A DNA stretch of 64,000 nucleotides, from positions 1-64,000 of IMG/VR virus record IMGVR_UViG_3300032050_000076; one strand, written 5' to 3'. The position numbers were made by a program, and so were the translations under genes. How positions within the stretch are numbered: the stretch's first letter is position 1; each line of letters starts with the position of its first letter. Positions 4,751 to 64,000 of the stretch are shown piece after piece. Source of the stretch: a virus. The notes beneath the pieces were generated by a model that saw nothing but the letters and a program-made list of their open reading frames with translations, did not search any database and had not been told where the DNA came from.

Positions 4751-4752
4751 TT

Positions 4753-5538: not shown

Positions 5539-6287
5539 AAGTCTCTGTCATCACACCAACCACAGGCAACCCATATCTTGCAGAATGCATTGCATCTGTA
5601 AGAGCGCAAACATACCAAAATATCGAGCACATTGTAGTTGTTGATGGTAAAGAACGTTGGAATAAGGCAGACGAAATCTTATTGGCTTCTGAATTCCCAA
5701 ATGGAATGAATGAACATGTCTGCATTTTACCCTACCCTACAGGCACTAATCGTTACAACGGTCACCGTGTGTATGGTGCTGCTACTTATTTCGCAGATGG
5801 CGATTATCATATTTGGTTAGATGATGACAATGTTCTAGAACCAACTCATATAGAAAGTCTCATAAAAATTGTTCAAGAAAAGAAACTCGATTGGGCTTTT
5901 TCGTTTAGAAAGATTATAGATAAAGATAGCAATGTAATCTGTTTAGATGATTGTGAGAGTCTTGGTTTATGGCATTCTATTCTCAGTCCACAAGATTTCT
6001 TTGTTGACGTCAATTGTTATTTTGTCAAGAAAGAAGTGGCAGTTGGCATGAGTCCAGTTTGGTATCGCAAATTTCGCGAGCCAGGTCAGATGGAAATCGA
6101 TCGAGCCATTGCATCAATACTAATGGGAAAACAAAACAATCTAAAGTATGATTGCACTCGCGACTATACAGTGAAATATCGAGTTGGTAATACAGGACTC
6201 TCCGTACAGGGAGAGTTTTTCCTTCGTGGAAACCAAGCGATGTTGCAATTGCATAATAACAAATTACCATGGAAAAATCATGGCTAA
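5535..6287 (+). CDS. GT2-type (GT-A fold) glycosyltransferase
   Basis: 250-residue protein starting KVSVITPTTGN-PYLAECIASVRAQTYQNIE, the typical N-terminus of family 2 glycosyltransferases. It has the nucleotide-sugar/metal-binding acidic motif D96-D-D98-N and a following active-site region (DWAFSFRKI). It would transfer a sugar from a nucleotide donor. The GTG start at 5535 overlaps the previous stop (GTGA). There is no membrane anchor, so it is cytoplasmic. A terminator-like hairpin lies inside its 3' end (6197-6220). Confidence 0.78.
   Translation: MKVSVITPTTGNPYLAECIASVRAQTYQNIEHIVVVDGKERWNKADEILLASEFPNGMNEHVCILPYPTGTNRYNGHRVYGAATYFADGDYHIWLDDDNVLEPTHIESLIKIVQEKKLDWAFSFRKIIDKDSNVICLDDCESLGLWHSILSPQDFFVDVNCYFVKKEVAVGMSPVWYRKFREPGQMEIDRAIASILMGKQNNLKYDCTRDYTVKYRVGNTGLSVQGEFFLRGNQAMLQLHNNKLPWKNHG
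6197..6220 (+). terminator. Terminator-like hairpin near the end of the GT2 gene
   Basis: Perfect 7-bp stem ACTCTCC / GGAGAGT (6197-6203, 6210-6216), loop GTACAG, then a T run (6216-6220). It lies about 70 bases before the stop codon, so it could lower expression of the downstream methyltransferase genes. Confidence 0.45.
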
Positions 6288-37986: not shown

Positions 37987-38358
37987 ATGGCTAATCCTAA
38001 TATAGTCAACGTGACGTCGATTTATGGAAAAACAGCTGGAGTCAATCTGACTTCAAATAGCATGACAACGCTTGTAAATAATGGAGCAGCGTCATCTAAA
38101 TCATTGAAGATCAATGTGCTCAATATGACAAACTATAGCGGAAACACTATTCTTGTTTCAGTGTCATATTATACTGCTGCAAATCAGGGTGGAACTGAAT
38201 ATAAAATTGCTCATGAAGTCAGTGTTCCAACTGGTACGATATTGACAGTACTAGATAAAGGAACTGGATATTATCTTGAAGAGGATTCATCATTGGCAGT
38301 CAAAGCAAATGTTGCAAATTCAATCTTTGCAACAGCAAGTTATGAGGAAATCAGCTAG
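37987..38358 (+). CDS. Small beta-rich fibre-cassette protein (123 aa)
   Basis: 123-residue beta-rich protein (SKSLKINVLNMTNYSGNTILVSVSYYTA ...), in the position held by the ~110-residue proteins of the other cassettes (40354, 53193, 61914), directly before a glycine-rich adhesin gene. Likely a structural partner or cap. ATG 37987 has GGAGG upstream at 37977-37981; the frame start at 37969 is inside the preceding gene. Confidence 0.6.
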   Translation: MANPNIVNVTSIYGKTAGVNLTSNSMTTLVNNGAASSKSLKINVLNMTNYSGNTILVSVSYYTAANQGGTEYKIAHEVSVPTGTILTVLDKGTGYYLEEDSSLAVKANVANSIFATASYEEIS

Positions 38359-38360
38359 TC

Positions 38361-40073
38361 ATGACTAGAAGGTATAGAGGTGGCATCATTCGATCATCAT
38401 TACCGCCAATTGGTGCGGGTAATGTTGTCGCAAGCGGCATTTATAGTGCTGCTGATGTTGCTCAATATGTCGGATCTGGATTTTGGCCATTTGTGATAAG
38501 TGGTCGAACGATTGTTCTTACATTTACATCATCCAGTACATGGACTGCCCCAACTGGTGTCACTCAAGTTGAGTATTTGGTTGTTGCTGGTGGTGGTGCG
38601 GGTTCGCTTGCTGGCGGAGGTGCAGGTGGATTCAGAACGGGGACATCATATCCTGTAACTGCTGGAAACACTTATACCATCACTGTTGGTGCTGGTGCTG
38701 CAGGCGCTGCAGCATTAAATAGAGGCGCAAATGGATCTTCATCAGTATTTGACACAATCACATCTGCTGGAGGTGGTGGTGCGGGTGGTTACAATTCACC
38801 TAACGCTGAAGGAAATGGTCACGCTGGAGGATCAGGCGGTGGCGGTGGTGCAAGATCAGGTATTTACAGTGGAACTGGTGGAGCAGGAAATACACCTACA
38901 GTAAGTCCATCTCAAGGAAATAGTGGTGGAAACGGTGCTGACGCAGGAAGCAGTTCTCCAGGTGGTGGTGGGGGTGGTGCAGGTGCTGTTGGTGGAAATG
39001 CAACCGCATCACCAAGAATTGCTGGAAATGGTGGTGTTGGAGCATCATCAACAATTTCTGGATCATCAGTAACTTATGCTGGTGGCGGAGGAGGCTCTTC
39101 TGCACCAGGAAATCCGAATGGAACTGGTGGAACAGGTGGTGGTGGTGCAGGTGTGTCTAGTGGAACTCCTAATTCTGGAACAACAAATTCAGGTGGCGGT
39201 GGTGGTGGTAACTGGAATGGTCCAACAGATAATGGTGGATCTGGCGGCTCTGGCATTGTAATTCTCAAATACACTATGCCTGGAAGTGTGATATCATTTA
39301 CTAATTCAGCCAGCTGGATTTGTCCAGAAGGTGTCACATCTGTTGACTATCTCGTTGTTGCTGGTGGTGGCGGTGGCGGTGCTGGTGGACCAGCATTTGG
39401 TGCTGGTGGAGGTGGAGGGGGCGGTGGTGCAGGCGGATTTAGAACTGGCACTGCATTATCTGTAACACCAGGCACAGCATATACAGTCACTGTTGGCGCT
39501 GGTGGTTCTCAAAGCGCAAATGGAAATGATTCTGTTTTTTCAACGATTACAGCGACTAAGGGGGGTCGTGGAGGTATTCCAGATGGATCTACATCATCAG
39601 CATCAGGTGGATCGGGTGGTGGAGGAGGAGGTCTAAATTTAGCATTTACACAAAATGGTGCTGCTGGAAATACACCGAGTACATCACCATCACAAGGAAA
39701 TAATGGTGGAAATGGATTTGGAAGTGATTCAGACGCTGACGTTCAATGTGGCGGTGGTGGTGGTGGTGCAAATGCGGTTGGTTCAAATGGTGCATCATCG
39801 GCAGGTGGAAATGGTGGCAATGGAACTGCATCTTCAATCACTGGCACTTCTGTAACTTATGCTGGTGGTGGTGGTGGTGGAAAAAGAACAAATGCTGGCT
39901 CTCCAAATACTGCAGGAACAGGTGGATCTGGTGGTGGTGGTAATGGCGCAAAAGCATCAACAGGAAGTGCTGGCACTGCTAATTTGGGTGGTGGTGGTGG
40001 TGGTGGAGGTGGAAACTCACCAACAAATGGTGGTGCTGGCGGTAGTGGTATAGTCATTCTCAAACTCAATTAG
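38361..40073 (+). CDS. Glycine-rich tail adhesin, copy 1 (570 aa)
   Basis: 570-residue protein with two tandem glycine-rich domains (about residues 50-305 and 308-570). Each starts with a W-containing beta strand plus V[ED]YLVVAGGGG, and ends GGSGGSGIVILK[YL]. Long GGGGxGG runs suggest polyglycine-II-type packing, as known for glycine-rich phage adhesins such as the tip protein of phage S16. It would be a host-recognition tip. It shares a 61-bp identical stretch with the copy at 40688. Confidence 0.75.
   Translation: MTRRYRGGIIRSSLPPIGAGNVVASGIYSAADVAQYVGSGFWPFVISGRTIVLTFTSSSTWTAPTGVTQVEYLVVAGGGAGSLAGGGAGGFRTGTSYPVTAGNTYTITVGAGAAGAAALNRGANGSSSVFDTITSAGGGGAGGYNSPNAEGNGHAGGSGGGGGARSGIYSGTGGAGNTPTVSPSQGNSGGNGADAGSSSPGGGGGGAGAVGGNATASPRIAGNGGVGASSTISGSSVTYAGGGGGSSAPGNPNGTGGTGGGGAGVSSGTPNSGTTNSGGGGGGNWNGPTDNGGSGGSGIVILKYTMPGSVISFTNSASWICPEGVTSVDYLVVAGGGGGGAGGPAFGAGGGGGGGGAGGFRTGTALSVTPGTAYTVTVGAGGSQSANGNDSVFSTITATKGGRGGIPDGSTSSASGGSGGGGGGLNLAFTQNGAAGNTPSTSPSQGNNGGNGFGSDSDADVQCGGGGGGANAVGSNGASSAGGNGGNGTASSITGTSVTYAGGGGGGKRTNAGSPNTAGTGGSGGGGNGAKASTGSAGTANLGGGGGGGGGNSPTNGGAGGSGIVILKLN
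39267..39327 (+). repeat. 61-bp perfect direct repeat, copy 1
   Basis: Identical to 41600-41660; encodes the start of the second glycine-rich domain (YTMPGSVISFTNSASWICP). Flanking DNA diverges, so recent exchange or duplication is likely. Confidence 0.85.
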
Positions 40074-40087
40074 TATAGAGAAAATAA

Positions 40088-40342
40088 ATGTCTGAACCAA
40101 TTATTCGAACAACGCAAGTCGCAAATCTAGAAACAAATTTAGGTTCTGCTGCAAACACTGTGCGCATTTCGCAAAATAGTTCATCAACTCTTTCTGCAAA
40201 ACAATTAAATTTTGTAAATACAACAAACGTCTCAATTACAGTGAGTGATTCTGGTGATGGAAATGCAAATATTTCCTTCGAGGTTGCTGGTGGATCTTCT
40301 GGTCCATCTGAATCATTTCATCCATTCTTACTTGGTTTATAA
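40088..40342 (+). CDS. Short fibre-cassette protein (84 aa)
   Basis: 84-residue protein: N-terminal adaptor-like part and a beta stretch (SSSTLSAKQLNFVNTTNVSITVSDSGDGNANISF) also seen inside larger fibre proteins of this window. Ends FHPFLLGL, similar to the endings ...FLTGL (61718) and ...VIALS (52989) of the other first cassette genes. First gene of the second three-gene cassette. Confidence 0.6.
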   Translation: MSEPIIRTTQVANLETNLGSAANTVRISQNSSSTLSAKQLNFVNTTNVSITVSDSGDGNANISFEVAGGSSGPSESFHPFLLGL

Positions 40343-40353
40343 GGTATATTCGA

Positions 40354-40686
40354 ATGCCACAAACATATAAAGTATTAGGTCAATCTGCTCCTGCAGCAAA
40401 TACAACCGCAAATGTTTACACAGTTCCTGCTGCAACGCAAGCTGTTGTTTCTTCGATCATTGTGACGAATAGAAACAATAATGCAAACGCAACATATAGA
40501 ATTGCTGTTCAACCAGCTGGTGCTGCATTAGCCAATCAACATTATATTGCATATGATTCAACAGTGACTGCACTCGATTCGATTGCACTATCACTCGGTG
40601 TCTCAATGGGCAACACGGATGTATTGTCTGTCTATTCAGCAAACGCCAATATTTCATTCAGCGTCTTTGGTGTAGAAATTACCTAA
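40354..40686 (+). CDS. Fibre-cassette beta protein, copy B (110 aa)
   Basis: 110-residue beta-rich protein, a clear paralogue of 61914 (PxTYKxLGQ, YTVPAATQ, ANQHYxAYD, SFSVFGxEIT shared) and more distantly of 53193. Always followed at once by a glycine-rich adhesin gene. Likely forms a small trimer or attaches the adhesin; inference. Confidence 0.68.
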   Translation: MPQTYKVLGQSAPAANTTANVYTVPAATQAVVSSIIVTNRNNNANATYRIAVQPAGAALANQHYIAYDSTVTALDSIALSLGVSMGNTDVLSVYSANANISFSVFGVEIT

Positions 40687-40687
40687 T

Positions 40688-42388
40688 ATGGCAACGAAAG
40701 TCTTTTCATTAGCATCGCTCTCTGCTTTCGGATATTCTCCGACGGGCAGATACAATGCATTGAATCCAAGCAGGATTATAAATCCAGCATGGAATCTAAC
40801 AAAAACTATTGTTTTGACATTCACATCATCAAGCACATGGACTGCTCCAACTGGTGTCACTTCTGTCGACTATCTCGTTGTTGCTGGTGGTGGATCTGGT
40901 GGAACAGCCTATGGCGGCGGCGGAGGAGCAGGTGGCTTTAGAACAGGGACAGGTTTAGCAGTAACCGCTGGAAATACATACACAATTACAGTTGGCGCTG
41001 GTGGCGCAGCTAGAGGCGCAAGCCCATCATATTTTACTGGAGACCCAGGATCTGCTTCTCAATTCAGCGATATTGTTTCTGCTGGTGGTGGAGGTGGTGG
41101 AGCTATTCCGAATAACGGCGTCGGATTAAGTGGCGGATCTGGTGGCGGCGGTGGATATTATTCTGAAATAGGCGGAACTACATCAGGCGGCGCAGGAAAT
41201 ACTCCTGCAACTTCACCATCACAAGGTAATAATGGTGGCAGCGGGGTCAATAATCCATTTTATGGTGGTGGCGGTGGTGGTGGCGCAGGGTCTAGTGGCG
41301 ATAATTATATGCCTAGTGGACCAGCCGCTGGTGGTTCAGGAATAGCATCATCAATATCTGGATCATCTGTAACCTATGCTGGTGGTGGCGGTGGTGGCAC
41401 ATATACTGGTACTTCTCCTGCTGGTGGAGGTCCTGGCGGCACAGGCGGCGGTGGTCGTGGCGGATTTGTTCCTGGTGTCAGCAATGCTGGTGTTGCAGGA
41501 ACAGTAAACACTGGCGGTGGTGGAGGCGGTGGCGGCGGTAGTGGTCAAGGCAACCAAAATGGTGGCAGCGGTGCTGGTGGTTCAGGAATTGTAATTTTAA
41601 AATACACTATGCCTGGAAGTGTGATATCATTTACTAATTCAGCCAGCTGGATTTGTCCAGCTGGTGTAACATCTATAGACATTCTTGCTGTCGGTGGCGG
41701 TGGCGGTGGTGGAAGAGGCGGTGGCGGCGCAGGTGGTTTGGTTTACTCAACATCTGTTGCTGTAACAGCAGGAAACACATACACAATCACAATTGGTTCT
41801 GGTGCGGCTGGTGCATCTTCTGCTGGAGGAACACGAGGTTCTCGCGGAGGTAACACTACTATATCTGGCACAGGATTTACAACAATCACTGCAGTGGGTG
41901 GTGGTTCTGGCGGCGTCCATGGAGATGCAACAAACTCTACTGGTCAAGACGGTGGATCTGGTGGTGGCGGTGGACCATATGGTGGAAATCGTCCTGGCGG
42001 TGCTGGTGTTTATCCAGGAAGTTCATTTATTAGTTTGACAAGACAAGGATATAATGGTGGTGCAGGACTTGAGAATGGAAATTTTCCATCTGGTGGTGGA
42101 GGTGGTGCAGGTGCTGTGGGTGCTGATGGTGCTGGTGCTGCGGGTGGTAATGGTGGAAATGGACTAGAATATAGCATCACAGGCACTTCTGTAACATACG
42201 CTGGTGGTGGCGGTGGTGCAAGAGGATCAAGTGGTGGAACAACAGATGGTTCTGGTGGGACAGGCGGTGGTGGAACAGATGGTGCCAATGGAACTGCTAA
42301 TCTTGGTGGCGGCGGCGGTGGGAAACTGTACAATGCTGGCAATGGTGGTAATGGTGGTTCTGGCATTGTAATTCTCAAACTTAATTAA
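40688..42388 (+). CDS. Glycine-rich tail adhesin, copy 2 (566 aa)
   Basis: 566 residues, two glycine-rich domains (from about 36 and 311) with the same borders as copy 1 (VDYLVVAGGG ... GIVILK). Domain 2 begins with the 61-bp repeat shared with copy 1, then diverges (SIDILAVGGGGGGG). Third gene of cassette B. Variable glycine-rich loops probably set receptor choice. Confidence 0.75.
   Translation: MATKVFSLASLSAFGYSPTGRYNALNPSRIINPAWNLTKTIVLTFTSSSTWTAPTGVTSVDYLVVAGGGSGGTAYGGGGGAGGFRTGTGLAVTAGNTYTITVGAGGAARGASPSYFTGDPGSASQFSDIVSAGGGGGGAIPNNGVGLSGGSGGGGGYYSEIGGTTSGGAGNTPATSPSQGNNGGSGVNNPFYGGGGGGGAGSSGDNYMPSGPAAGGSGIASSISGSSVTYAGGGGGGTYTGTSPAGGGPGGTGGGGRGGFVPGVSNAGVAGTVNTGGGGGGGGGSGQGNQNGGSGAGGSGIVILKYTMPGSVISFTNSASWICPAGVTSIDILAVGGGGGGGRGGGGAGGLVYSTSVAVTAGNTYTITIGSGAAGASSAGGTRGSRGGNTTISGTGFTTITAVGGGSGGVHGDATNSTGQDGGSGGGGGPYGGNRPGGAGVYPGSSFISLTRQGYNGGAGLENGNFPSGGGGGAGAVGADGAGAAGGNGGNGLEYSITGTSVTYAGGGGGARGSSGGTTDGSGGTGGGGTDGANGTANLGGGGGGKLYNAGNGGNGGSGIVILKLN
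41600..41660 (+). repeat. 61-bp perfect direct repeat, copy 2
   Basis: Identical to 39267-39327, at the same place in the paralogous gene. Confidence 0.85.
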
Positions 42389-52413: not shown

Positions 52414-52986
52414 ATGAATGATTTTAATATGTTGATGCTTTTTCCTTGTAATGTTATGTTTAAAGAAGAAAGAGGTTTAATTACAGAAAATTTAATTTCT
52501 ATTTCTAAAGAAATATTATTAAAAAATGCAGAAACACCATTTCATAGTAAATGTATAAGCACGGTTCGAACTAAAAGTGATATTTTAGAATTGTCAGAAT
52601 TTTCAGGGATTAAGCAATTTCTTGGTAATCTTGTTTATGTTTATTGCGAACAAATGAAAATCGATTGTTCTAAATTGAGTATTTTAGATAGTTGGTTAAA
52701 TCTATATGAAGAAGGTGGTTATCAAGATTTACATAATCATCATGATTCTATGATTTCTGGGGTATTTTGGCTGCAAAGTTCAGAAGAAAAAGATTTTGTT
52801 TTCCAAGCACCATGGCATTTTATGCAACCAAAACTTCCGAATTATACAGAATATAATTTAAATAACTGCCATAACGTAGAAATAAATAGCAATGTGGGTA
52901 GAGGAATGGTCTTTATGAGTCATATGTTGCACCGAACTCTACCGACTAAAACGGAAAGAATTAGTTTAAGTTTTAATGTAGGTTAA
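52414..52986 (+). CDS. 2OG-Fe(II) oxygenase family protein (TIGR02466-like), 190 aa
   Basis: 190-residue double-stranded beta-helix protein. LFPCN near the start, iron ligand region LH107-N-H109-H-D-SMISGVFWL, distal H173 (SHMLHRTLP), and Arg in ERISLSFN for 2-oxoglutarate; this is the layout of TIGR02466 proteins of phages and bacteria. It would hydroxylate a protein, lipid or sugar. ATG 52414 is chosen, because the longer frame from 52273 overlaps the fibre gene. Codon use is more AT-rich than its neighbours. Its place inside a collagen-rich fibre array suggests a fibre substrate, not proven. Confidence 0.7.
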   Translation: MNDFNMLMLFPCNVMFKEERGLITENLISISKEILLKNAETPFHSKCISTVRTKSDILELSEFSGIKQFLGNLVYVYCEQMKIDCSKLSILDSWLNLYEEGGYQDLHNHHDSMISGVFWLQSSEEKDFVFQAPWHFMQPKLPNYTEYNLNNCHNVEINSNVGRGMVFMSHMLHRTLPTKTERISLSFNVG

Positions 52987-52988
52987 AA

Positions 52989-53180
52989 ATGGCAATCAAT
53001 CTATTACCTGGCGATGCAATTGCATCAAATACTATTACCGACACTCAGATGAACTCTGCAACATGGGCGCAAGTTTATGCTGCTCTTGCAACTGCAAATG
53101 CGGCTTATGCTCAAGCAAATAGCGCAACAACAGCAGCAGAAAGTGGTGTTTCTCTTGGTTTAGTGATTGCATTATCCTAA
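52989..53180 (+). CDS. Short fibre-cassette adaptor, copy C (63 aa)
   Basis: 63-residue protein with the tag LLPGDAIASNTITDTQMNS, then a coiled-coil-like QVYAALATANAAYAQAN segment and a short hydrophobic end. Clear paralogue of 61718. First gene of cassette C. Probably a trimeric linker between virion and adhesin. Confidence 0.68.
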   Translation: MAINLLPGDAIASNTITDTQMNSATWAQVYAALATANAAYAQANSATTAAESGVSLGLVIALS

Positions 53181-53192
53181 TCGGAGAATAAA

Positions 53193-53519
53193 ATGGCACA
53201 AGTATTTAAGTTACGAGCAGCATCACTAACAACAGCTAATGCTAATGTTTATGTTTGTCCTGCGAATGCAACATCTATTGTTATCATGGGACAAATTGCA
53301 AACAAAGATGGTGCTAACTCTGCCGACGTAACTATGTACGTTTATGATTCTAGTGAAGCAGCAGCAAAGGCTCTAGTATATACTGTTCCTGTTCCTGCAG
53401 ATGCAGCAACAACCTTTTTGACAGGTAAATTAGTTTTAGAAGCAAATGATTATATTTTTGGAACTGCTTCTTCAAATAATCATCTAGATGTTACAGTAAG
53501 CATTTTGGAAATGACATGA
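53193..53519 (+). CDS. Fibre-cassette beta protein, copy C (108 aa)
   Basis: 108-residue beta-rich protein in the same position as 40354 and 61914, but more diverged (NVYVCPANATSIVIMGQIANKDG). Overlaps the next glycine-rich gene by 4 bases (ATGA). Function as for its paralogues: unknown structural partner. Confidence 0.65.
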   Translation: MAQVFKLRAASLTTANANVYVCPANATSIVIMGQIANKDGANSADVTMYVYDSSEAAAKALVYTVPVPADAATTFLTGKLVLEANDYIFGTASSNNHLDVTVSILEMT

Positions 53520-55141
53520 CAACACGTTTTATTGGCGCAAGAAGAATTGCTAGTTCCACTGCAGCAAACGTTGCAGGTATTTGGTCACTTGATGATATCA
53601 CATTCTTTCGCACATATGGATACATCACAGATTCTACTGCAATAACTGTAGTGCAAAATTTTAATTCATCATCTGTGTGGCGTTGCCCAGATGGTGTTAC
53701 TACTGTCGAGTATCTAGTTCTTGCTGGCGGTGGTGGTGGTGGCGCAGGTGCATATCTTAACCCAGGATTTGGTGCTGGCGGTGGTGGATTTAGAGTAGGG
53801 TCTGGATACGCAGTTACAGCAAATAATCTGTACACTATTACAATTGGTGCGGGTGGTGGAGGCGGGAGCATTGGATCATCATCATTTTTTGGTATCTCAC
53901 CTGCAACTCCTGGTGGAATACAAACAGATGGTGGAGGCGCAGGTGCACCTGGTCCACAAAATGGTGGTTCTGGCGGCGCACCTGCTGGATTAGGAAATCT
54001 ACCAAACGTTTATAGTCCAGCACAAGGATATAGTGCAACACCAGGCACAGGTCGTGGTGGTGGTGCTGGCGGTCCGAATGGACAAAATGCAATGTCATCA
54101 ATCACTGGTACTGCGCGTGGATATGGTGCTGGTGGTGGCGGAACTCCACTAGATCCAAACGCAGGAAGTCAAGGTGGAATTTCTCCTGGCGGTGGAGCAG
54201 GATATCCAGGTGGTTCTGGTACTGCCAACTTTGGCGGAGGCGGAGGCGGCGGTGGGTATGGTCCGAATGGTGGTTCAGCTGGTGGTTCTGGTGGTTCTGG
54301 AACTGTTATTCTCAGATATTCTATGTCAAGAACAGGCGTTGTTGCTTTTGTAAACACAAGTTCATTTATTGGTCCGACTGGTATCACAAGTTGCGATTAT
54401 TTTGTTGTTGCTGGCGGCGGTGGAGGCGGTTGGTATGGCGGTGGTGGCGGTGCTGGTGGTGTTAGATTCGGTTCTAATTACCCACTAACTGCTGGCAATG
54501 CTTATACAATTACTATTGGTGCTGGCGGAGCTGGAGGATATCCAGCAACACCATATGACACTGGTTCAGGTGCAAGTGGTACAAATAGTGTATTTGGGAC
54601 TATTACCTCTGCTGGCGGTGGTGCTGGTGGAACACCTGGACAACCTGGAGGAACTCCAAACGATGCTCGTGGTCAAGGTGGTTCAGGTGGAAGCGGCGGT
54701 GGAAGAACAGCAGGTGGACCAACAGCCAGTGCAGGATCTGGAAATATTCCGTCAGTTTATCCATCACAAGGAAACAATGGTGGCAATGCGACTGGTGGAC
54801 CAAATCCTGGTGGTGGAGGCGGTGGCGCTGGCGCTGTGGGTGGTAGCACAAGCCCAGCAACACCAACTGCAACAGGTAATGGTGGAATTGGCATTATTTG
54901 TCCATTTATTGCAGGTGGCACATTGTACAATGTGTACTTTGGTGGTGGTGGTGGTGGACACACAGGTGCTCTACCGAGAGCAATAGGAGGACCATCAGGT
55001 GGTGGAGATGGTGGAGCAGGACCAGCAGCACCAACAACAGCAGGAAATAATGCAATTGACAATCTTGGTGGCGGTGGCGGCGGTGGAAATCCCGCAGGTA
55101 GAGGGTCTTCTGGTATTGTAATTTTAAAATTTAATCCGTAA
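53516..55141 (+). CDS. Glycine-rich tail adhesin, copy 3 (541 aa)
   Basis: 541 residues; N-terminal TTRFIGARRIASS, then two glycine-rich domains (from about 43 and 275), each with VEYLVLAGGGG/CDYFVVAGGGG entry and GxGTVILRY/GIVILKF exit. Third gene of cassette C. Copy 3 has shorter domains than the others. Confidence 0.74.
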   Translation: MTTRFIGARRIASSTAANVAGIWSLDDITFFRTYGYITDSTAITVVQNFNSSSVWRCPDGVTTVEYLVLAGGGGGGAGAYLNPGFGAGGGGFRVGSGYAVTANNLYTITIGAGGGGGSIGSSSFFGISPATPGGIQTDGGGAGAPGPQNGGSGGAPAGLGNLPNVYSPAQGYSATPGTGRGGGAGGPNGQNAMSSITGTARGYGAGGGGTPLDPNAGSQGGISPGGGAGYPGGSGTANFGGGGGGGGYGPNGGSAGGSGGSGTVILRYSMSRTGVVAFVNTSSFIGPTGITSCDYFVVAGGGGGGWYGGGGGAGGVRFGSNYPLTAGNAYTITIGAGGAGGYPATPYDTGSGASGTNSVFGTITSAGGGAGGTPGQPGGTPNDARGQGGSGGSGGGRTAGGPTASAGSGNIPSVYPSQGNNGGNATGGPNPGGGGGGAGAVGGSTSPATPTATGNGGIGIICPFIAGGTLYNVYFGGGGGGHTGALPRAIGGPSGGGDGGAGPAAPTTAGNNAIDNLGGGGGGGNPAGRGSSGIVILKFNP

Positions 55142-55156
55142 ACTTGGAGTGACTTT

Positions 55157-55438
55157 ATGAATGAAGAAGTAAAAATATATCAGTTATATGGAATCAACAC
55201 AGCAATGCACCTACTTCGTCCAGGTGCTCGTTGGGAAATCAGCAATCGTGATATAACAATTTGGGAAGACGAGAGACCGCAGCCAACGTGGGAAGAAATA
55301 GATGATACGATGGAAAAGATTAAGCAGTTTGAAGATTCAATAAATACAATCTGGACGAAAAAACAAATTCAGGAAATCACAGGCGTTTTTGAGTCTGAAG
55401 ATTTCGAAGAAGTGAACGAGTACAAATCTAAGGAGTAA
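55157..55438 (+). CDS. Acidic helical protein in fibre array (93 aa)
   Basis: 93-residue acidic protein: compact N-terminal part (LLRPGARWEISNRDITIWEDERPQPTWEEI) and a helical C-terminus. The layout resembles small fibre-assembly or chaperone-like proteins beside phage adhesins, but I cannot name the family. A ribosome binding site (TTGGAGTGA) is present. Confidence 0.55.
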   Translation: MNEEVKIYQLYGINTAMHLLRPGARWEISNRDITIWEDERPQPTWEEIDDTMEKIKQFEDSINTIWTKKQIQEITGVFESEDFEEVNEYKSKE

Positions 55439-55444
55439 TGTAAT

Positions 55445-55813
55445 ATGGCACACTTTGCAGAGTTAGATGAAAATAATGTTGTAAAGAGAGTTATTGTTGT
55501 CGGTAATGATGACACATCTGATGCGCACGGTGTTGAGAAAGAACACATCGGTGCAGCATTCTGTGAACGTCTACTTGGCGGCACATGGAAGCAAACTTCT
55601 TACAACGGAAATATGCGCAAGCGTTATGCTGGTATCGGTTTTGCATACAATGCAGAACTCGATGCATTTGTTCCACCAAAACCATTTGTATCTTGGACGT
55701 TGAATAACACGACAGCGGATTGGGAAGCACCAGTTGCAAAGCCAGATGATGGGAAAGCATATATTTGGAACGAGTCAACTCTTTCTTGGGAAGAGGATTC
55801 TGTTCCAGCTTGA
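55445..55813 (+). CDS. Conserved aquatic-phage protein near fibres (122 aa)
   Basis: 122-residue protein starting MAHFAELDENNVVKRVIVV, with NGNMRKRYAGIGFAYNAELDAFVPPKPF in the middle and W-rich repeats at the end (WTLNNTTADWEAP, WNESTLSWEED). I recognise it as a common companion of fibre genes in aquatic T4-like phages. Function unknown; a virion component is likely. Confidence 0.68.
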   Translation: MAHFAELDENNVVKRVIVVGNDDTSDAHGVEKEHIGAAFCERLLGGTWKQTSYNGNMRKRYAGIGFAYNAELDAFVPPKPFVSWTLNNTTADWEAPVAKPDDGKAYIWNESTLSWEEDSVPA

Positions 55814-55838
55814 TCTATTTTAATCATGGAGTTATATT

Positions 55839-56453
55839 ATGCAAATTATATCATTATTTCCGACTGCGGTTGGAATGTTTCATCTGGGTCGAGATTTAAC
55901 TGAAATTGAGAAAGGTGCTCTATTAGATCTTGAAATGAAGCCCAACACGGGCAATACAACAAGCGCGGATAGATTTATTCTTCGAAAAGAAGAACTTAAA
56001 GATCTCCGCGCTTTTATTCAAACTTCCATTGATACCTATTTTCAGGAAGTTGTTGCGCCTTCGAAAGATGTAAATTTGTACATCACTCAGTCTTGGGTTA
56101 ATTATAGTAAACCAGGGCAATGGCATCATGCACATGAGCATCCAAACTCATTTCTTTCTGGTGTTTTCTATGTGCAAACAGATAATTCAAAAGATCGAAT
56201 TTACTTTGAAAAAAATCATTATGATCAGATTTCCTTTCCGACAGATAATTTCAATCTCTACAATTCAAAAACTTGGTGGTTAGAAGCCACTCAAGGAAGA
56301 TTAGTGATTTTTCCTTCCTCGCTAAGACACTCAGTAAATGTAGTACAAGCCGAACAAACTCGTGTCAGTCTTTCGTTTAATACTTTTGCAAAAGGATTAA
56401 TAGGTTCGGAAGAGAATCTAACTGCTCTCGAGGTGGGGCAGATCTATAACTAA
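55839..56453 (+). CDS. Second 2OG-Fe(II) oxygenase family protein (TIGR02466-like), 204 aa
   Basis: 204-residue TIGR02466-like dioxygenase: LFPTAVGMF start, iron ligands in WHHAH99-E-H101-PNSFLSGVFYV, distal H164 (SSLRHSV), and 2-oxoglutarate-binding Arg in TRVSLSFN. It is a paralogue of 52414 but clearly diverged. The same position inside the fibre array makes a virion protein such as the collagen-like fibres a candidate substrate. Cofactor binding is predicted from residues only. Confidence 0.78.
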   Translation: MQIISLFPTAVGMFHLGRDLTEIEKGALLDLEMKPNTGNTTSADRFILRKEELKDLRAFIQTSIDTYFQEVVAPSKDVNLYITQSWVNYSKPGQWHHAHEHPNSFLSGVFYVQTDNSKDRIYFEKNHYDQISFPTDNFNLYNSKTWWLEATQGRLVIFPSSLRHSVNVVQAEQTRVSLSFNTFAKGLIGSEENLTALEVGQIYN

Positions 56454-56457
56454 ATAA

Positions 56458-56559
56458 ATGGCAAGAAAACTAAAAGGCGGTGCAGATGGTGATGCTTCTT
56501 TCGCCTCTTATGGTGGATCTGGCGGCTCTGGTATTATTATTACCAAACTTAACGGATAA
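56458..56559 (+). pseudogene. Deletion scar of a fibre cassette (33-codon fused ORF)
   Basis: ATG 56458 opens MARKLKGGA, the start of a first-cassette gene (as 61718). It then joins in frame to GDASFASYGGSGGSGIIITKLNG, the end of a glycine-rich adhesin (as 63886-63952). The DNA from the joint through the downstream spacer (CGGATAATCGGAAAAGAAAA) is nearly identical to 63870-63970. The junction lies at a shared GGCGGTGC. It is the remnant of a complete three-gene cassette lost by deletion; the remaining ORF may still be translated. Confidence 0.8.
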
Positions 56560-56571
56560 TCGGAAAAGAAA

Positions 56572-59139
56572 ATGGCAGAAAAATTACCAGGAACAGCAAT
56601 TGTAGCAAATACGATTACAACAACGCAGTTGTCGACAATTGTGGTGAATCAGATCTCTGCGGGTGGTGGACCTCGCGTCTCTAGTTTGATCTATCCTGGA
56701 AATGACACAGCAGGTAACACTGTCGGTGGTCAAACTGTTTATATCAACGGTGCTGGTTTCGAAACAAATAATGCCATTTATATCAACGGTAATGCCGTTC
56801 CTTCAAAGTCATTCATCAGCGCAAGCAATATTTCTTTCACAACACCAGCATTATCCGCAGGCATTTATCCAGTTTATGTGATCAACACAGACTCTGGTGC
56901 AACTGCAATTTTTGTTCCAGGTTATATTTCTTCTGCTGAGCCTGCATGGGCGACTGCTGCTGGAAGTTTGAGTGAATCGCAAGATGAACTCAGCGCATGG
57001 AGTTATTCTCTATCTGCAACTGGTGATGCTCCAATCACTTATGCTCTTGCTGCTGGGAGTTCACTACCAACAGGAGTTTCTCTTGCTGCAAATGGATTGA
57101 TCAGTGGAACAATCACATCTCCATCAGGCAATACAACAACCTATACATTTAGTGTTGTCGCAACCGATGCACAGAATCAAGATTCTACAAGACAATTTAC
57201 TGTTACAACATCAACAGGCGAAGGTGTGTTGTTTGCGAATAATGTTTTATTGATTCATGCTGACGGAACGAATAATCAAAACAATCATACATTCTTGGAT
57301 TCTTCGAATAATAACTTCACTATTACTAGAAACGGTAATGCAACTCAAGGAACATTTAGTCCATTTAGTCAAACTGGATGGAGTGGATATTTTGATGGAA
57401 CTGGAGACTATCTAACTTATAGTCCTGGATCAACATTATCTTCTATAGGAACTGGACCATTAACAATTGAAGCATGGGTATATTACACAGGAAATCACTC
57501 TGGTTTTCATGATATTTTTGTAACCAGTACTAGTTTAGGAATGTTATTAGATGCAGGAAAACTTCGTTTTTATGGTTTTTCTGCAGCAACAGCTGCAACT
57601 AATCTAGTTCAAAATACATGGGTTCACGTGGCAGTTGTTCGACAATCTTCTAATGTGTTTGGTTTTATTGGTGGAACAAAGGTTTTAGATACAACAACCA
57701 ATGTAGGATTTAGTGGATCAACGGGATATATTGGTTCTTGGACTTCAGGCACTACTGAAAATTGGCCAGGATATATTTCTAATTTAAGAGTTTCAAATAG
57801 TGCAAGATATACAGCCAATTTCACACCATCAACAACACAATTTACTTCAGATGCCAATACGGCATTACTTACACTGCAATCAAATCGATTTATAGACAAT
57901 AGCAATAACAACTTCACAATCACACGCAATGGTGATACTTCTATTCAAGCATGGTCTCCATTTGCTCCAACTGCTGAGTATTCAACAGCAAATGTGGGTG
58001 GTGGTGGGTATTTTGATGGGACTGGAGATTATCTGTCAGTACCAGATAATGTCGCATTAGAATCATTTACTGATTTTACTATTGAATTTTGGGTATATTT
58101 CAATTCTGTATCAGGCACACAAATTGTTGTTGATAAAGGATGGAATGCTGCAGCTATCAGTCCCTATCTGATTTTCCTGTCGTCAGGTAGTCTCATAGCA
58201 TACGCTAGTTCTGGATCTACATGGGATGTTTTGAGCGGCAGTTCTTTTGGAACAATGGCAACAGGTCAATGGTTTCATATTGCATTAACGAGAAGTGGAA
58301 GTTCGATACGATTATTCACGAATGGCAGTTTGATTACAACTGTCACTAACTCAACGACTTTAATGAATAGTGCCTCTAATTTAGGTGTGGGCGCAGGACC
58401 ATCTGCGGGAGTTAATCCTCTAAATGGATACCTGTCAGGTCTTCGAATTGTGAAAGGTACTGCTGTTTATACTTCTGCGTTTACTCCACCAACAGCACCA
58501 CCAACAAACATTGCTAATACATCTTTACTTCTCAACTTCACCAACGCTGGCATCTTCGACCAAACAGCGAAGAATGTAATTGAAACAGTCGGTGATGCCA
58601 AAGTTAGCACTGCGCAATTTAAGTATGGTACTGGTTCTATTTCGTTTGATGGTACTGGTGATTATATCAAGATAACCAAGAATGCAACTCTATTAAATTT
58701 TGGATCTGGCGATTTCACAGTTGAAACTTGGGTGCGCTTCAATACCGTTGGCGCAGATCAAGCAATATTGGGATCTGATGGCACAACAGGAGCCTATGAT
58801 ATTCTTTACAGAACTGGTGTAGGTTTAGTTATCGGCAGATACAACACAGCATTCGATAGTAACTTTTCATGGTCGCCAAGTATTAATACTTGGTATCACA
58901 TTGCATGGTGCAGATCAGGAAGTTCACTAAGAGCATTTGTAGACGGCGTTCAAATTGGATCAACTGCAACAAACACAAATGCATATAATGGTGGCACAAA
59001 TTATTCTGTCATAGGCGCTTCAGATGCAAGTAATACTAGATCATTAAATGGATTCTTAGACGATCTTCGCATCACCAAAGGCTATGCTCGCTACACATCA
59101 AACTTCACAGCGCCAACTTCTGCGTTGAAGGACAAATAA
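56572..59139 (+). CDS. TIG / He_PIG / triple LamG-like fibre protein, copy 1 (855 aa)
   Basis: 855-residue adhesin. N-terminal tag KLPGTAIVANTITTTQL, TIG-like domain (about 38-125), He_PIG-like domain (about 135-215), then three LamG/concanavalin-like lectin domains (from about 226, 432 and 653; each with YFDGTGDYL, FTIEAWV-type and TNGSLI/VDGVQI strands). Likely binds host surface glycans. The stop overlaps the next start; the two genes are tandem duplicates. Confidence 0.78.
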   Translation: MAEKLPGTAIVANTITTTQLSTIVVNQISAGGGPRVSSLIYPGNDTAGNTVGGQTVYINGAGFETNNAIYINGNAVPSKSFISASNISFTTPALSAGIYPVYVINTDSGATAIFVPGYISSAEPAWATAAGSLSESQDELSAWSYSLSATGDAPITYALAAGSSLPTGVSLAANGLISGTITSPSGNTTTYTFSVVATDAQNQDSTRQFTVTTSTGEGVLFANNVLLIHADGTNNQNNHTFLDSSNNNFTITRNGNATQGTFSPFSQTGWSGYFDGTGDYLTYSPGSTLSSIGTGPLTIEAWVYYTGNHSGFHDIFVTSTSLGMLLDAGKLRFYGFSAATAATNLVQNTWVHVAVVRQSSNVFGFIGGTKVLDTTTNVGFSGSTGYIGSWTSGTTENWPGYISNLRVSNSARYTANFTPSTTQFTSDANTALLTLQSNRFIDNSNNNFTITRNGDTSIQAWSPFAPTAEYSTANVGGGGYFDGTGDYLSVPDNVALESFTDFTIEFWVYFNSVSGTQIVVDKGWNAAAISPYLIFLSSGSLIAYASSGSTWDVLSGSSFGTMATGQWFHIALTRSGSSIRLFTNGSLITTVTNSTTLMNSASNLGVGAGPSAGVNPLNGYLSGLRIVKGTAVYTSAFTPPTAPPTNIANTSLLLNFTNAGIFDQTAKNVIETVGDAKVSTAQFKYGTGSISFDGTGDYIKITKNATLLNFGSGDFTVETWVRFNTVGADQAILGSDGTTGAYDILYRTGVGLVIGRYNTAFDSNFSWSPSINTWYHIAWCRSGSSLRAFVDGVQIGSTATNTNAYNGGTNYSVIGASDASNTRSLNGFLDDLRITKGYARYTSNFTAPTSALKDK

Positions 59140-61715
59140 TGAGTATCTATAAACTCCCTGGTTCTGCAATTCAAGCGAATACGATTAGTGTAACCCAGTT
59201 ACAAACAACTGTTGTGACTCAAATTCAATCTGGTGCTAGTGGTGGTCCGAAAGTCAAGAGCCTCATCTATCCAAGCAATGACACTGCTGCAAACTCAACA
59301 GGTGGTCAAACTGTTTATATTACTGGTTCTGGTTTCGCTGCCAATGCACAAGTTCTTGTGAACGGTGCTGCTGTACCTTCTCAATCGTTTATCAGTGCAA
59401 GCAATATTTCTTTCACAACACCAGCACTTTCGACTGGAACCTATCCTGTTTATGTGATCAATCCAGAAGATGGTGGAACTGCGATTCTATATCCAGGATT
59501 ATTAATTTCTGGTGAGCCAACATGGGTCACGTCAGCAGGAAGTTTAAGTGCATCGCAAGATGAGTTAAGTTCCTGGAGTTATTCTCTATCTGCCACAGGT
59601 GACACACCAATCACTTATGCGCTTGCAGCAGGAAATACCTTACCAACTGGAATTAGTCTTGCAGCAAATGGGCTAATCAGTGGAACAGTCAGTTCACCAA
59701 CTGGTAATGCAACAACATATACGTTTAGTGTGATTGCAACTGATGCTCAAAATCAAGACTCCACGAGACAGTTTACTGTCACGACGTCAACTGGAGAAGG
59801 TGTATTATTCGCTAATAATGTTCTATTGATTCATGCTGACGGAACGAACAATCAAAACAACCACACATTCTTAGATTCTAGCAATAATAATTTCACCATT
59901 ACAAGAAATGGTAATGCAACTCAAGGTAGTTTCTCTCCGTTTAGTCAAACTGGATGGAGTGCATTTTTTGATGGTACTGGGGATTATTTAACAGTTGCCG
60001 ACAATGCAGCTCTGCAAATGGGAAGTGGTGATTTTACTATTGAATTTTGGATGCAACCAACAAGTACTGGGGTAGCAACTGTATTTGGAAAGGGGTTTAG
60101 TGCTTCAGGTGCTATTTTAATGCAAACACTTTCTACCAGTGGAAGAATAGAACTTTGGGTCAATGGTTCTTTAGTGATAACAGAATCTTCGGGAACATAT
60201 TCTCCTAATAATTGGTATCATATAGCTGTAGTTAGAAGCGGTACATCACTTGTATTATACAGAAATGGAGTATCAACGGGCTCGGTTACAAATTCCGTGA
60301 ACTTAAACAGTACCGCGTCTTTGGGAATAGGCGGCGATCCTACAAATTTAGGTTATACTTTTACAGGTTATATATCTAACTTCCGCATGGTAAAGGGTAG
60401 TGCACTTTACACAACTACATTTACTACACCAGCATCACCATTAACAAATATCGCTAATACATCTCTACTCACGCTTCAATCAAATCGATTTATTGATAAC
60501 TCAACGAATGCATTTACAGTCACTCGCAATGGTGATACATCAATTCAAGCATGGTCTCCATTTGCTCCAACAGCTGCATATTCAACAGCGAATGTTGGCG
60601 GGAGTGGGTATTTTGATGGAACTGATGATTATTTACGCATTACAGACAATGCCGCATTTGATTTTGGATCTGGTGACTTCACTATTGAATGTTGGGCATA
60701 TACTGAAACTTTTGCATCACAGTATAATGTATTGGTGTGTCAGTGGGGTTCCAGCACAGCTTGGATTTTTAGAATCCAATCTACATTGATTGGTCTTTAC
60801 GCAAATATTGGTGGAACACAAAACTACACAGCTTCAGTTACTAACACAACAGGACAATGGGATCATTTTGCTGTTACAAGATCAGGCACAACATTAACTT
60901 TTTATAAGAATGGAGTATCTGTGGGGACCACCAGTATTTCAGGAACGATAAACAATGCAGCTGAAACAATCAGCATTGGTGTATTGAGTGAGTATAACTC
61001 TACAACGACTCATAAAGGTTACATATCTGGTTTGCGTGTTATAAAAGGTTCTGCAATTGCACCAACAATCACATCACCACCAACAAACATCGCCAACACA
61101 TCTCTACTCTGCAACTTCACCAATGCTGGCATCTTCGATCAAACAGCGAAGAATATTCTTGAGACAGTTGGTGATGCAAAAGTGAGCACTGCACAGTATA
61201 AGTATGGCACAGCGTCAATGTATTTTGATGGAACTGGAGATCGTGTACATACTGGTCCAAGTAATCCGCTAATAGCTCTTGGAACAGGAAATTTTACGGT
61301 AGAGTGTTGGGTAAATAAGTTGGATACAAACCATAGAGGAATATGGCAGATATCGTCGACGGCTGGAGGATTGCAAGCATCAACATCAAATTTAGCACTT
61401 GGTTATCAGACTGGTGTTTGGCAAATTTATCGCAACGGTAATTCTGAAAGTGCAAGTTATAGTATTACACCAAATACATGGTATCATACTGCAGTAGTAA
61501 GAAATAGTGGAACTACAAAACTTTATGTCAATGGCACAGAAGTAATATCAGTAGCAGACACAAACAATTACACTGGAACATATATGGTAATTGGTGGATA
61601 TTATGATACAAATTATTTACATAATGGCTACATCGACGATCTTCGCATCACCAAAGGCTACGCTCGCTACACATCTAACTTCACTGCACCAACTTCTGCT
61701 TTAAAGGATAAATAA
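59139..61715 (+). CDS. TIG / He_PIG / triple LamG-like fibre protein, copy 2 (858 aa)
   Basis: 858-residue tandem paralogue of the preceding gene with the same domain order (tag KLPGSAIQANTISVTQL; TIG, He_PIG, LamG from about 227, 446 and 657). Ends and first 230 residues are very similar to copy 1 (DDLRITKGYARYTSNFTAP...). The middle LamG domains differ much more, which suggests that the binding sites diversify or are exchanged. Confidence 0.78.
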   Translation: MSIYKLPGSAIQANTISVTQLQTTVVTQIQSGASGGPKVKSLIYPSNDTAANSTGGQTVYITGSGFAANAQVLVNGAAVPSQSFISASNISFTTPALSTGTYPVYVINPEDGGTAILYPGLLISGEPTWVTSAGSLSASQDELSSWSYSLSATGDTPITYALAAGNTLPTGISLAANGLISGTVSSPTGNATTYTFSVIATDAQNQDSTRQFTVTTSTGEGVLFANNVLLIHADGTNNQNNHTFLDSSNNNFTITRNGNATQGSFSPFSQTGWSAFFDGTGDYLTVADNAALQMGSGDFTIEFWMQPTSTGVATVFGKGFSASGAILMQTLSTSGRIELWVNGSLVITESSGTYSPNNWYHIAVVRSGTSLVLYRNGVSTGSVTNSVNLNSTASLGIGGDPTNLGYTFTGYISNFRMVKGSALYTTTFTTPASPLTNIANTSLLTLQSNRFIDNSTNAFTVTRNGDTSIQAWSPFAPTAAYSTANVGGSGYFDGTDDYLRITDNAAFDFGSGDFTIECWAYTETFASQYNVLVCQWGSSTAWIFRIQSTLIGLYANIGGTQNYTASVTNTTGQWDHFAVTRSGTTLTFYKNGVSVGTTSISGTINNAAETISIGVLSEYNSTTTHKGYISGLRVIKGSAIAPTITSPPTNIANTSLLCNFTNAGIFDQTAKNILETVGDAKVSTAQYKYGTASMYFDGTGDRVHTGPSNPLIALGTGNFTVECWVNKLDTNHRGIWQISSTAGGLQASTSNLALGYQTGVWQIYRNGNSESASYSITPNTWYHTAVVRNSGTTKLYVNGTEVISVADTNNYTGTYMVIGGYYDTNYLHNGYIDDLRITKGYARYTSNFTAPTSALKDK

Positions 61716-61717
61716 TC

Positions 61718-61912
61718 ATGGCTCGTAAACTCAAAGGCGGTGCGATTCAAGCGAATACAGTCACCACAACTCAAATGAACGCTAATGCATGGAGTCAAGT
61801 ATATGCAGCACTCGCAGCAGCAAATGCTGCATATGCTCAAGCAAACACTGCAAACACTTCAGCCGCTAGTGCTTCTGGTGGCTTTGCTAAATCGTTTTTA
61901 ACAGGACTATAA
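61718..61912 (+). CDS. Short fibre-cassette adaptor, copy D (64 aa)
   Basis: 64-residue protein: tag RKLKGGAIQANTVTTTQMNA, coiled-coil-like SQVYAALAAANAAYAQANTANTSAAS segment, hydrophobic end FLTGL. Paralogue of 52989. Its first nine codons match the start of the scar ORF at 56458. Confidence 0.7.
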   Translation: MARKLKGGAIQANTVTTTQMNANAWSQVYAALAAANAAYAQANTANTSAASASGGFAKSFLTGL

Positions 61913-61913
61913 A

Positions 61914-62246
61914 ATGCCAGAAACATATAAAATTCTTGGTCAGGTTGCAGCAACTGCAAACACCACACATAACGTATATACTGTTCCTGCAGCAACACAG
62001 ACAGTTGTTTCTTCGATTGTGGTTGTAAATAGAAATAATGGATCAAATTGCACTTATCGTGTTGCAGCACAACAAGCAGGAGCTGCTCTTGCCAATCAAC
62101 ACTATCTCGCTTATGATGCTCCAATTGCAGCACTAGATACTGTTGCATTGTCATTAGGAATTACACTCGGAAACACGGATGTAATTTCTGTATATACTTC
62201 AAACTCAAATCTTTCATTCAGCGTCTTTGGAACAGAGATCACCTAA
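61914..62246 (+). CDS. Fibre-cassette beta protein, copy D (110 aa)
   Basis: 110-residue close paralogue of 40354: PETYKILGQ, YTVPAATQTVVSS, ANQHYLAYD, SFSVFGTEIT. Starts one base after the adaptor stop and overlaps the adhesin gene by one base, so the three are one translation unit. Confidence 0.7.
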   Translation: MPETYKILGQVAATANTTHNVYTVPAATQTVVSSIVVVNRNNGSNCTYRVAAQQAGAALANQHYLAYDAPIAALDTVALSLGITLGNTDVISVYTSNSNLSFSVFGTEIT

Positions 62247-63952
62247 TGGGATTTAAGATTGGTTCACTTATAACGATTGGAAATCGTGGGTTGAATCCAA
62301 CTCATGTGCTTTCGCGCACACGACAGGTTGTAAATCCAGTATGGAATTACCCTTCGCCAAAAACTGTTGTACTTACATTTAAACAATCTGGATCATGGAC
62401 ATGTCCAACAGGTGTCACTGAGGTTGAGTATCTTGTCATTGCTGGTGGTGGAGGAGGTGGTGGTGCAAGTGACATTGGAGCAGGTGGTGGCGGTGCTGGC
62501 GGATTTAGAACAGGAACTGCATTTCCAGTGACTGCTGGAAACACTTATACAATCACTGTTGGCGCTGGTGGAAACGGTGGAACTGGCACTCCAAGCGGCT
62601 CAACTGTTGCAGGATCTAATGGATCTAGTTCTGTATTTGATACTATTACTTCTGCTGGCGGTGGTGGCGGCGGATGTGGTAAAAATGGTGGAGTAGATTC
62701 TGATGGTAGAAATGGAGGATCTGGTGGTGGTGCAGGAGTTGCATCTAATCCAAACTCAGGAAAAACAGGTGGTTCTGGTAATATACCATCTGTAAACCCG
62801 TCTCAAGGAAATAATGGTGGTAATTCAACGTATGGTGCACCAGCATATGGTGGTGGCGGTGGTGGTGGATCAGGTGCTGTTGGTACAAACGGAACAACTT
62901 CTGTTGGTGGAAATGGTGGAAATGGAACAGCGTCAAGTTTATCTGGTTCTAGCGTAACCTATGCAGGTGGTGGTGCTGGTGGAGTTGGTGGTTATGGTGG
63001 ATCAGCTGGATCAGCTGGATCAGGTGGCGCAGGTGCAGTAAATACCGCAGCATCTCCAAACACTGGTAGTGGTGGAGGTGGTGGTTCTAATTCTGGAACA
63101 GGTGGATCTGGTGGTTCTGGTATTGTAATTCTTAAATATGTAATGCCAAATTTTGGTATTCAAGTTTTCAATTCAACAACAGAATGGAAATGTCCAGAAG
63201 GCGTCACTTCTGTTGAGTATCTAGTTATTGGTGGAGGAGGATCTGGAGGAGGATACACCAGCGGTGGTGGTGGTGGTGCTGGTGGATTTAGAGTTGGTGC
63301 AAATTTCTCAGTAACTGCAGGAAACACCTACACAGTTACAGTTGGTGCTGGTGGAGCAGGAATTAATACAGGTTTAGGAGCTTCTAATGGATCTTCTTCA
63401 ATTTTTGCTACTATAACTTCCGCAGGTGGCGGCAAAGGTGGTGTTAGAGGTCCTTCAAATGTTGGTGCTGCAGATGGTGGTTCTGGTGGTGGTGGTCACG
63501 GTGATGGTGGTGGTAATGGTGGGCTTGGTAATACACCGAGCGTGTCACCATCACAAGGAAATAATGGAGGAAACGCTCTTACTGGCGATTATCCAAACTT
63601 CCGCGCTAATGGCGGTGGTGGTGGTGGCGCAGGAGCTGCTGGTCAAAACGCGCAAGCAGGTTCAAATGGTAATGGTGGTAGTGGAGCTGTGTCTTCTATC
63701 ACAGGAATAACATTAACTTATGCTGGCGGCGGGGGAGCAGGTACAAGCAGAACCCAATTTGGTGATATTGCTGGTTCTGGCGGAACAGGAGGAGGGGGAG
63801 CTGGCGCACCAAGAGCACCTGCCAATTCGAATGGTACATCTGGAACAACAAACACTGGTGGTGGTGGTGGCGGTGCAGGTGGTGATGCTTCTTTCACCTC
63901 TTATGGTGGGTCTGGCGGCTCTGGTATTGTTATTATCAAACTCAACGGATAA
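62246..63952 (+). CDS. Glycine-rich tail adhesin, copy 4 (568 aa)
   Basis: 568 residues with two glycine-rich domains (from about 35 and 302), VEYLVIAGGGG/VEYLVIGGGGS entries and GGSGGSGIVI[LI]K exits. Third gene of cassette D. Its last ~23 codons (GDASFTSYGGSGGSGIVIIKLNG) are the intact version of the scar at 56458. Confidence 0.75.
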   Translation: MGFKIGSLITIGNRGLNPTHVLSRTRQVVNPVWNYPSPKTVVLTFKQSGSWTCPTGVTEVEYLVIAGGGGGGGASDIGAGGGGAGGFRTGTAFPVTAGNTYTITVGAGGNGGTGTPSGSTVAGSNGSSSVFDTITSAGGGGGGCGKNGGVDSDGRNGGSGGGAGVASNPNSGKTGGSGNIPSVNPSQGNNGGNSTYGAPAYGGGGGGGSGAVGTNGTTSVGGNGGNGTASSLSGSSVTYAGGGAGGVGGYGGSAGSAGSGGAGAVNTAASPNTGSGGGGGSNSGTGGSGGSGIVILKYVMPNFGIQVFNSTTEWKCPEGVTSVEYLVIGGGGSGGGYTSGGGGGAGGFRVGANFSVTAGNTYTVTVGAGGAGINTGLGASNGSSSIFATITSAGGGKGGVRGPSNVGAADGGSGGGGHGDGGGNGGLGNTPSVSPSQGNNGGNALTGDYPNFRANGGGGGGAGAAGQNAQAGSNGNGGSGAVSSITGITLTYAGGGGAGTSRTQFGDIAGSGGTGGGGAGAPRAPANSNGTSGTTNTGGGGGGAGGDASFTSYGGSGGSGIVIIKLNG

Positions 63953-63964
63953 TCGGAAAAGAAA

Positions 63965-64000
63965 ATGGCACGCAAATTAGACGGTAGTTATATCACAGCA
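63965..64000 (+). CDS. Start of another fibre-array gene, cut by window edge
   Basis: ATG 63965 opens MARKLDGSYITA, again the N-terminal tag of the array, preceded by the same spacer as before 56572. Only 12 codons are visible. Confidence 0.6.
   Translation, partial: MARKLDGSYITA

Follow-up and report, generated by a model that had tools for sequence, protein, structure and literature searches.

What left an open reading frame (ORF) of only 33 codons, beginning like one gene and ending like another, within an array of probable fibre genes? The ORF starts 4 bases past the stop codon of the second of two 2OG-Fe(II) oxygenase (2OG) genes and is followed by an adhesin gene with TIG and LamG domains, in a stretch of viral DNA referred to here as the window (bases 1–64000 of a 79,760-base virus record). 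The initial annotation of the window had read this ORF as the scar of a deletion across a whole gene cassette, and the proposal was followed up by comparisons within the record and with related viral contigs.

The fibre-gene array and the fused ORF

The DNA polymerase encoded in the record shared 53% identity with its counterpart in Synechococcus phage S-T4 and, judged by this protein alone, the phage is probably T4-like. The array of probable fibre/adhesin genes extends from about 38 kb to 65.6 kb and contains glycine-rich adhesins (Gly_rich_2), adhesins with TIG and Laminin_G_3 domains, a collagen-like protein, and the two 2OG genes (Table 1). Its recurrent unit, the cassette, consists of an adaptor (approximately 64 aa), a protein of about 110 residues (the 110aa type), and a glycine-rich adhesin. 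A 110aa-type protein was encoded in three intact units of the window (at 40354, 53193, and 61914), and the order 2OG–adaptor–110aa type–glycine-rich recurred there at 52414–55141. A 123-aa protein at 37987, located before another glycine-rich adhesin gene, showed no significant similarity to the 110aa proteins by BLAST; whether the missing unit is a “fifth” cassette, as it had been called, depends on how the three intact units and this additional glycine-rich gene are counted. The glycine-rich gene, an approximately 84-codon gene, the 2OG gene, and the small gene MAHFAE found at 53516–56453 also occurred together in many related viral contigs.

Table 1 Coordinates of the array features and of the parts of the 33-codon ORF in the window (EKIK and MAHFAE are working names of two small genes)
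Feature	Position	Strand	Remarks
123-aa protein, then glycine-rich adhesin	37987..40073	+	
Further unit	40088..42388	+	84-aa protein of other type, 110aa protein, glycine-rich adhesin
Intact cassette after first 2OG gene (52414–52986)	52989..55141	+	adaptor, 108aa protein, glycine-rich adhesin
Upstream landmark genes	55157..56453	+	EKIK 55157–55438, MAHFAE 55445–55813, 2OG-Fe(II) oxygenase (PF13759) 55839–56453
33-codon ORF	56458..56559	+	adaptor start joined in frame to the end of a glycine-rich adhesin
Left piece, adaptor start	56458..56483	+	22/26 bases identical to 61718–61743
Joint, GGCGGTGC	56476..56483	+	same 8 bp at 61736–61743 and 63869–63876
Right piece, glycine-rich adhesin end, stop, linker, next start codon	56476..56577	+	96/102 bases identical to 63869–63970
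Linker, TAATCGGAAAAGAAAATGGCA	56557..56577	+	stop, ribosome-site-like stretch, start; also at 63950, variant at 53178
Downstream adhesin	56572..59139	+	KLxG start, TIG domain, three Laminin_G_3 stretches
Second TIG and LamG-like adhesin	59139..61715	+	paralogue of the 56572..59139 adhesin
Sister cassette	61718..63952	+	adaptor 61718–61912, 110aa protein 61914–62246, glycine-rich adhesin 62246–63952 (Gly_rich_2, PF21722)
Sister copy of the right piece	63869..63970	+	with linker and next start codon

The translation of the ORF is MARKLKGGA|DGDASFASYGGSGGSGIIITKLNG, and no Pfam match was obtained for it. Both pieces were compared with the sister cassette in fixed registers. All four mismatches of the left piece were silent, and MARKLKGGA is encoded at both sites; this comparison ended at the joint, the third base of the ninth codon falling past it. 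Counted by eye, the right piece carried four amino-acid replacements and two silent changes relative to its sister copy. The start of one gene is thereby joined to the end of another, as in a deletion scar, and the short sequence at the joint is common to both parents, for which the sister copy served as stand-in. In these respects the initial annotation, which had described the fusion, the near-identity extending from the joint up to and including the next start codon, and a sequence shared by both parents, was borne out.

The two pieces carried different statistical weight. None of 1000 random 102-mers from the 79,760-base record had a second copy with at least 96 matches. The level reached by the left piece, 22/28, was attained by 12% of 2000 random 28-mers from the record and by 7% of 1000 taken outside the array, and with 12% of random 28-mers matching equally well the left piece could not be regarded as significant by itself. 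Its probable assignment to an adaptor draws on the encoded residues, the start-codon register, rarity in IMG/VR, and synteny, not on base identity alone. A KLxG start is also present in the TIG adhesins, the best such match to the left end of the ORF being 18/27 bases versus 22/27 for the adaptor, and the left end could come from a TIG adhesin rather than an adaptor. As for the joint, at least eight shared bases were found at 0.03% of random breakpoint pairs between the adaptor and the glycine-rich gene of the sister cassette.

The initial annotation had also described a promoter- or ribosome-site-like spacer preserved after the ORF. The latter half of this description stood: the 21-base pattern TAATCGGA(A/G)AA(G/T)AAAATGGCA occurred at three gene borders (53178, 56557, and 63950) and was absent from all 100 shuffles, and it looks like a stop–ribosome site–start element. 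The promoter half did not, a scan for promoters of the sigma-70-like type having found none at this place.

The cassette in related phages

A search for phages in which the cassette is still present, recommended in the initial annotation, yielded two contigs with an intact unit after the 2OG/MAHFAE genes. In L024, the order is 2OG#1–adaptor–110aa type–glycine-rich–EKIK–2OG#2–MAHFAE, followed by the cassette at 4496–6011 (adaptor 4496, 110aa 4740, glycine-rich 5079) and a TIG/LamG adhesin at 6037. The seven genes before this cassette were 56–86% identical to those of the window, and the cassette itself is of another subtype (adaptor 33% and glycine-rich protein 36% identical). In L327, a truncated 2OG gene and MAHFAE precede the cassette at 776–2916 (adaptor 776, 110aa 975, glycine-rich 1309), with a TIG adhesin at 2949; compared with the sister cassette, the identity was 93/110 residues (84.5%) for the 110aa protein, 333/518 aligned residues (64%) for the glycine-rich protein, and 36/64 (56%) for the adaptor, with 75% at the DNA level over 781 bases. 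The order of MAHFAE and 2OG in the window is swapped relative to both. These cassettes, homologous and not near-identical, occupy the place that corresponds to the fused ORF. A near-identical intact cassette was not found at that place in any contig, hence the parents used here are stand-ins; that such stand-ins and intact relatives could be found at all is what makes the case clean.

Evidence on the other side came from relatives lacking the cassette. The EKIK, 2OG, and MAHFAE genes of L012 and L013 are followed by none, and in L023 a TIG/LamG adhesin that is 84% identical over 212 residues to the gene at 56572 comes immediately after a fragment of a 2OG gene, with no cassette between. Among 79 loci with related 2OG genes (L244–L322), 74 had a tagged 2OG gene, and a full cassette followed it in none, as scored by an insensitive tagger that missed 110aa proteins and on contigs that were often short. 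The neighbours of the 110aa ORF were counted in 56 of 80 loci, 24 being left out by no fixed rule: a glycine-rich ORF came after it in 31 and a short ORF before it in 26.

Origin of the joint

We consider it highly probable that the 33-codon ORF is what remains of a cassette removed by recombination at the 8-bp shared sequence. The ancestor would have had the order of 2OG/MAHFAE genes, then adaptor, 110aa protein, and glycine-rich adhesin, then TIG adhesin, which is the order kept in the relatives, with the lost cassette being a sister copy of that at 61718–63952. Recombination between GGCGGTGC near the adaptor start and GGCGGTGC near the end of the glycine-rich gene would have removed the intervening DNA, presumably within one cassette and by copying slippage or strand annealing, joining the ends in one reading frame and sparing the linker and the start codon of the adhesin that follows; the relic so formed probably serves no function by itself. 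For a lost copy equal in length to the sister cassette, in which the repeat lies at 61736 and 63869, the loss would amount to 2133 bp, which replaces the earlier figure of about 2 kb by an estimate that is itself taken from the sister copy. This number is a multiple of three and both genes lie in one frame, in agreement with the open fusion ORF. The earlier claim of a deletion across a whole cassette is therefore supported, the two halves being the two ends of one cassette type and the intact cassette being present in L024 and L327. Of the wider claim that the array grows and shrinks, the loss is supported, and the growth is suggested by paralogues only. The sister cassette contains 11 distinct repeats of 8–9 bp between its adaptor and glycine-rich gene; with such repeats so common, losses of this kind could recur. 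It is conceivable, though rather improbable, that the relic acts as an empty slot, its start and end pieces with the conserved stop–ribosome site–start linker serving as landing sites at which cassettes are lost and regained.

The possibility that the ORF is an independent small gene, e.g., for a chaperone or adaptor peptide, which merely resembles both ends, was evaluated from its distribution. Degenerate patterns for its start and its end were scanned over IMG/VR, from which records very near the window's own were possibly left out. The start pattern gave five stretches and the end pattern, which covers TCN serine codons only and misses AGY, gave four, all of them at the fused ORF or the sister cassette on three contigs of the same phage (L009, L010, and L011). 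Relative to the window, these contigs carried, respectively, 94 substitutions in 20.6 kb, 5 in 16.1 kb, and 70 in 14.7 kb, and L010 had two gaps in addition; between 56400 and 56650 they had no differences at all, and thus the ORF does not vary among the four contigs. A screen of the record and of 235 loci (L009–L243) for short ORFs ending in a glycine-rich sequence picked out this ORF alone. An open frame placed 4 bases after the 2OG stop and identical in four contigs is what an independent gene would also give. However, no second lineage of such a gene, which the initial annotation had named as evidence that would contradict a deletion if conserved in many phages, appeared in the short-ORF screen or in the two pattern scans (the end pattern with the serine limit given above), the Pfam search gave no family, and the changes between the right piece and its sister copy were four amino-acid replacements against two silent ones by eye; this explanation is very improbable. 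The exact 15-base pattern GGTGATGCTTCTTTC matched at least 118 stretches, which beyond the phage's own contigs were viewed in the short-ORF screen only. Two Polaromonas matches to the MARKLKGGA pattern in prokaryote genomes had a stop directly after each and were taken as chance.

The same contigs bear on an assembly error at repeats, also named beforehand as a result that would speak against the deletion. The array is indeed repetitive, yet the joint is identical in the window and in three contigs with different metagenome numbers, of which the window's own record may not be independent; such an error has a negligible probability.

A copying of approximately 100 bases of the glycine-rich end and linker from the site at 63.9 kb into an adaptor start, with no cassette lost, would account for the course of identity along the block: 27–29 of 30 bases matched per window inside it from the joint onwards, and 17–22 just past the next start codon. 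The similarity nevertheless returns to 23–26 of 30 further into the next gene and then fades, which a gene order once common to both sites would predict, and two relatives carry a cassette at this very place, which leaves the copying explanation quite improbable. More plausible, though still doubtful, is a loss in trans, i.e., a template switch or unequal crossing-over between replicating genomes or cassette copies at the 8 bp, a variant of the highly probable cassette loss that gives the same end product. It could accommodate an unequal divergence of the two pieces: outside the shared 8 bases, 4/18 bases of the left piece and 6/94 of the right piece differed from the sister (p = 0.053), and with these bases counted the values were 4/26 and 6/102 (p = 0.12). 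Divergence may have gone further in the left piece than in the right, and the pieces may differ in their histories. Relatives that carry adhesin modules at different places, and bounded patches of differences suggestive of frequent recombination, point the same way. Against this, both pieces have their nearest relative in a single cassette, as a simple deletion would predict unaided.

The patches in question are sharply bounded regions of dense substitutions between L009 or L011 and the window (60395–60542, 61151–61275, 62012–62228, and 55906–56099), with few differences between them. The first contained 51 substitutions in L009, and the L009 patches left the frames 59139–61715, 62246–63952, and 55839–56453 open. 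They suggest recombinational patch replacement and frequent recombination here, and the fibre genes of the array show recombination-like variation of the kind sought in a host-recognition cluster. In L010, 141 bases (58650–58790) and 168 bases (61108–61275) of the two LamG genes were absent, both lengths being multiples of three. By exact comparison no base was shared at either break (a 7-base BLAST overlap at the second did not hold up), and on this ground the mechanism proposed for the ORF was rejected for these two absences. Together with the patches they show a changing array, not the same mechanism.

Known systems and comparable relics

In the Xanthomonas phages OP1, Xp10, and Xop411, short G-rich direct repeats (GGCAG, CAGGCCGC) flank parts of tail fibres that have been gained or lost, and changes in the tail fibre of OP1 go with host range; in the sections concerned, the authors do not decide whether the change is caused by the repeats (PMC2248197). 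According to the same sections, domains within one gene change in these phages, whereas in the window a block of genes was very probably lost and a start-to-end fusion ORF remains (PMC2248197). In host-range mutants of Kayvirus 812, rearrangements at direct repeats were found in the phage population and a 456-nt deletion fused orf189 and orf192; in contrast to our case, these mutants are of laboratory origin, the genes joined do not form a fibre cassette, and the fusion is not tied to a repeat in the part of the account that describes it (PMC6445280). In pelagimyophages and cyanomyophages, the host recognition cluster is a hypervariable tail-fibre island of T4-like aquatic phages, presented in the parts of the article devoted to it as variable gene content and with no deletion relics described there, unlike the window with its probable relic (PMC7029224). 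Phages are known to lose sequence at short repeats, a process also suggested for tail-fibre genes, and the scar is a clear new case. It would record one remodelling step of a probable host-recognition array, including the unit lost (adaptor, 110aa protein, and glycine-rich adhesin) and the site of the break, and the translation signals of the next gene survived the loss.

Relics of this type can be screened for by computer, a first pass of which was performed here, and fibre-cassette losses could in this way be counted in uncultured phages. The screen for start-to-end hybrids among 730 short ORFs (the record and 117 loci) returned 25 rows, most of which were judged by eye to be full-length genes or frame noise; four candidates (L046 16071, L087 9157, L044 15885, and L222 13090) stayed weak on inspection of the DNA. 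Contig L027 contained two hybrids. At 9494–9575, the start of the MKTLEEKK gene runs out of frame into the end of a different structural gene; the left 54 bases were identical to L026 (54/54) and bases 46–82 to L023 (37/37), and nine bases at the joint, ATGTTTGGT, are common to these stand-in parents, which makes it a comparable case in favour of the cassette loss. At 9208–9480, a 90-codon fusion, which was absent from the 25 rows and was found by eye, ends as a glycine-rich adhesin 89% identical to that of L026; its start resembles by eye a methyltransferase-like gene of L216, with only 39% of bases matching position by position. In L023, the last approximately 17 codons of a 2OG-Fe(II) oxygenase gene (IGAEESLTALKVGQIYS, 828–884) lie between a structural gene and the TIG/LamG adhesin, at a genome position different from that in the window. 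The relics of L027 and L023 are like the scar in that the start of one gene is joined to the end of another, or a lone gene end remains, between fibre or structural genes; they differ from it in the genes and joints involved and, for L027 9494, in being out of frame.
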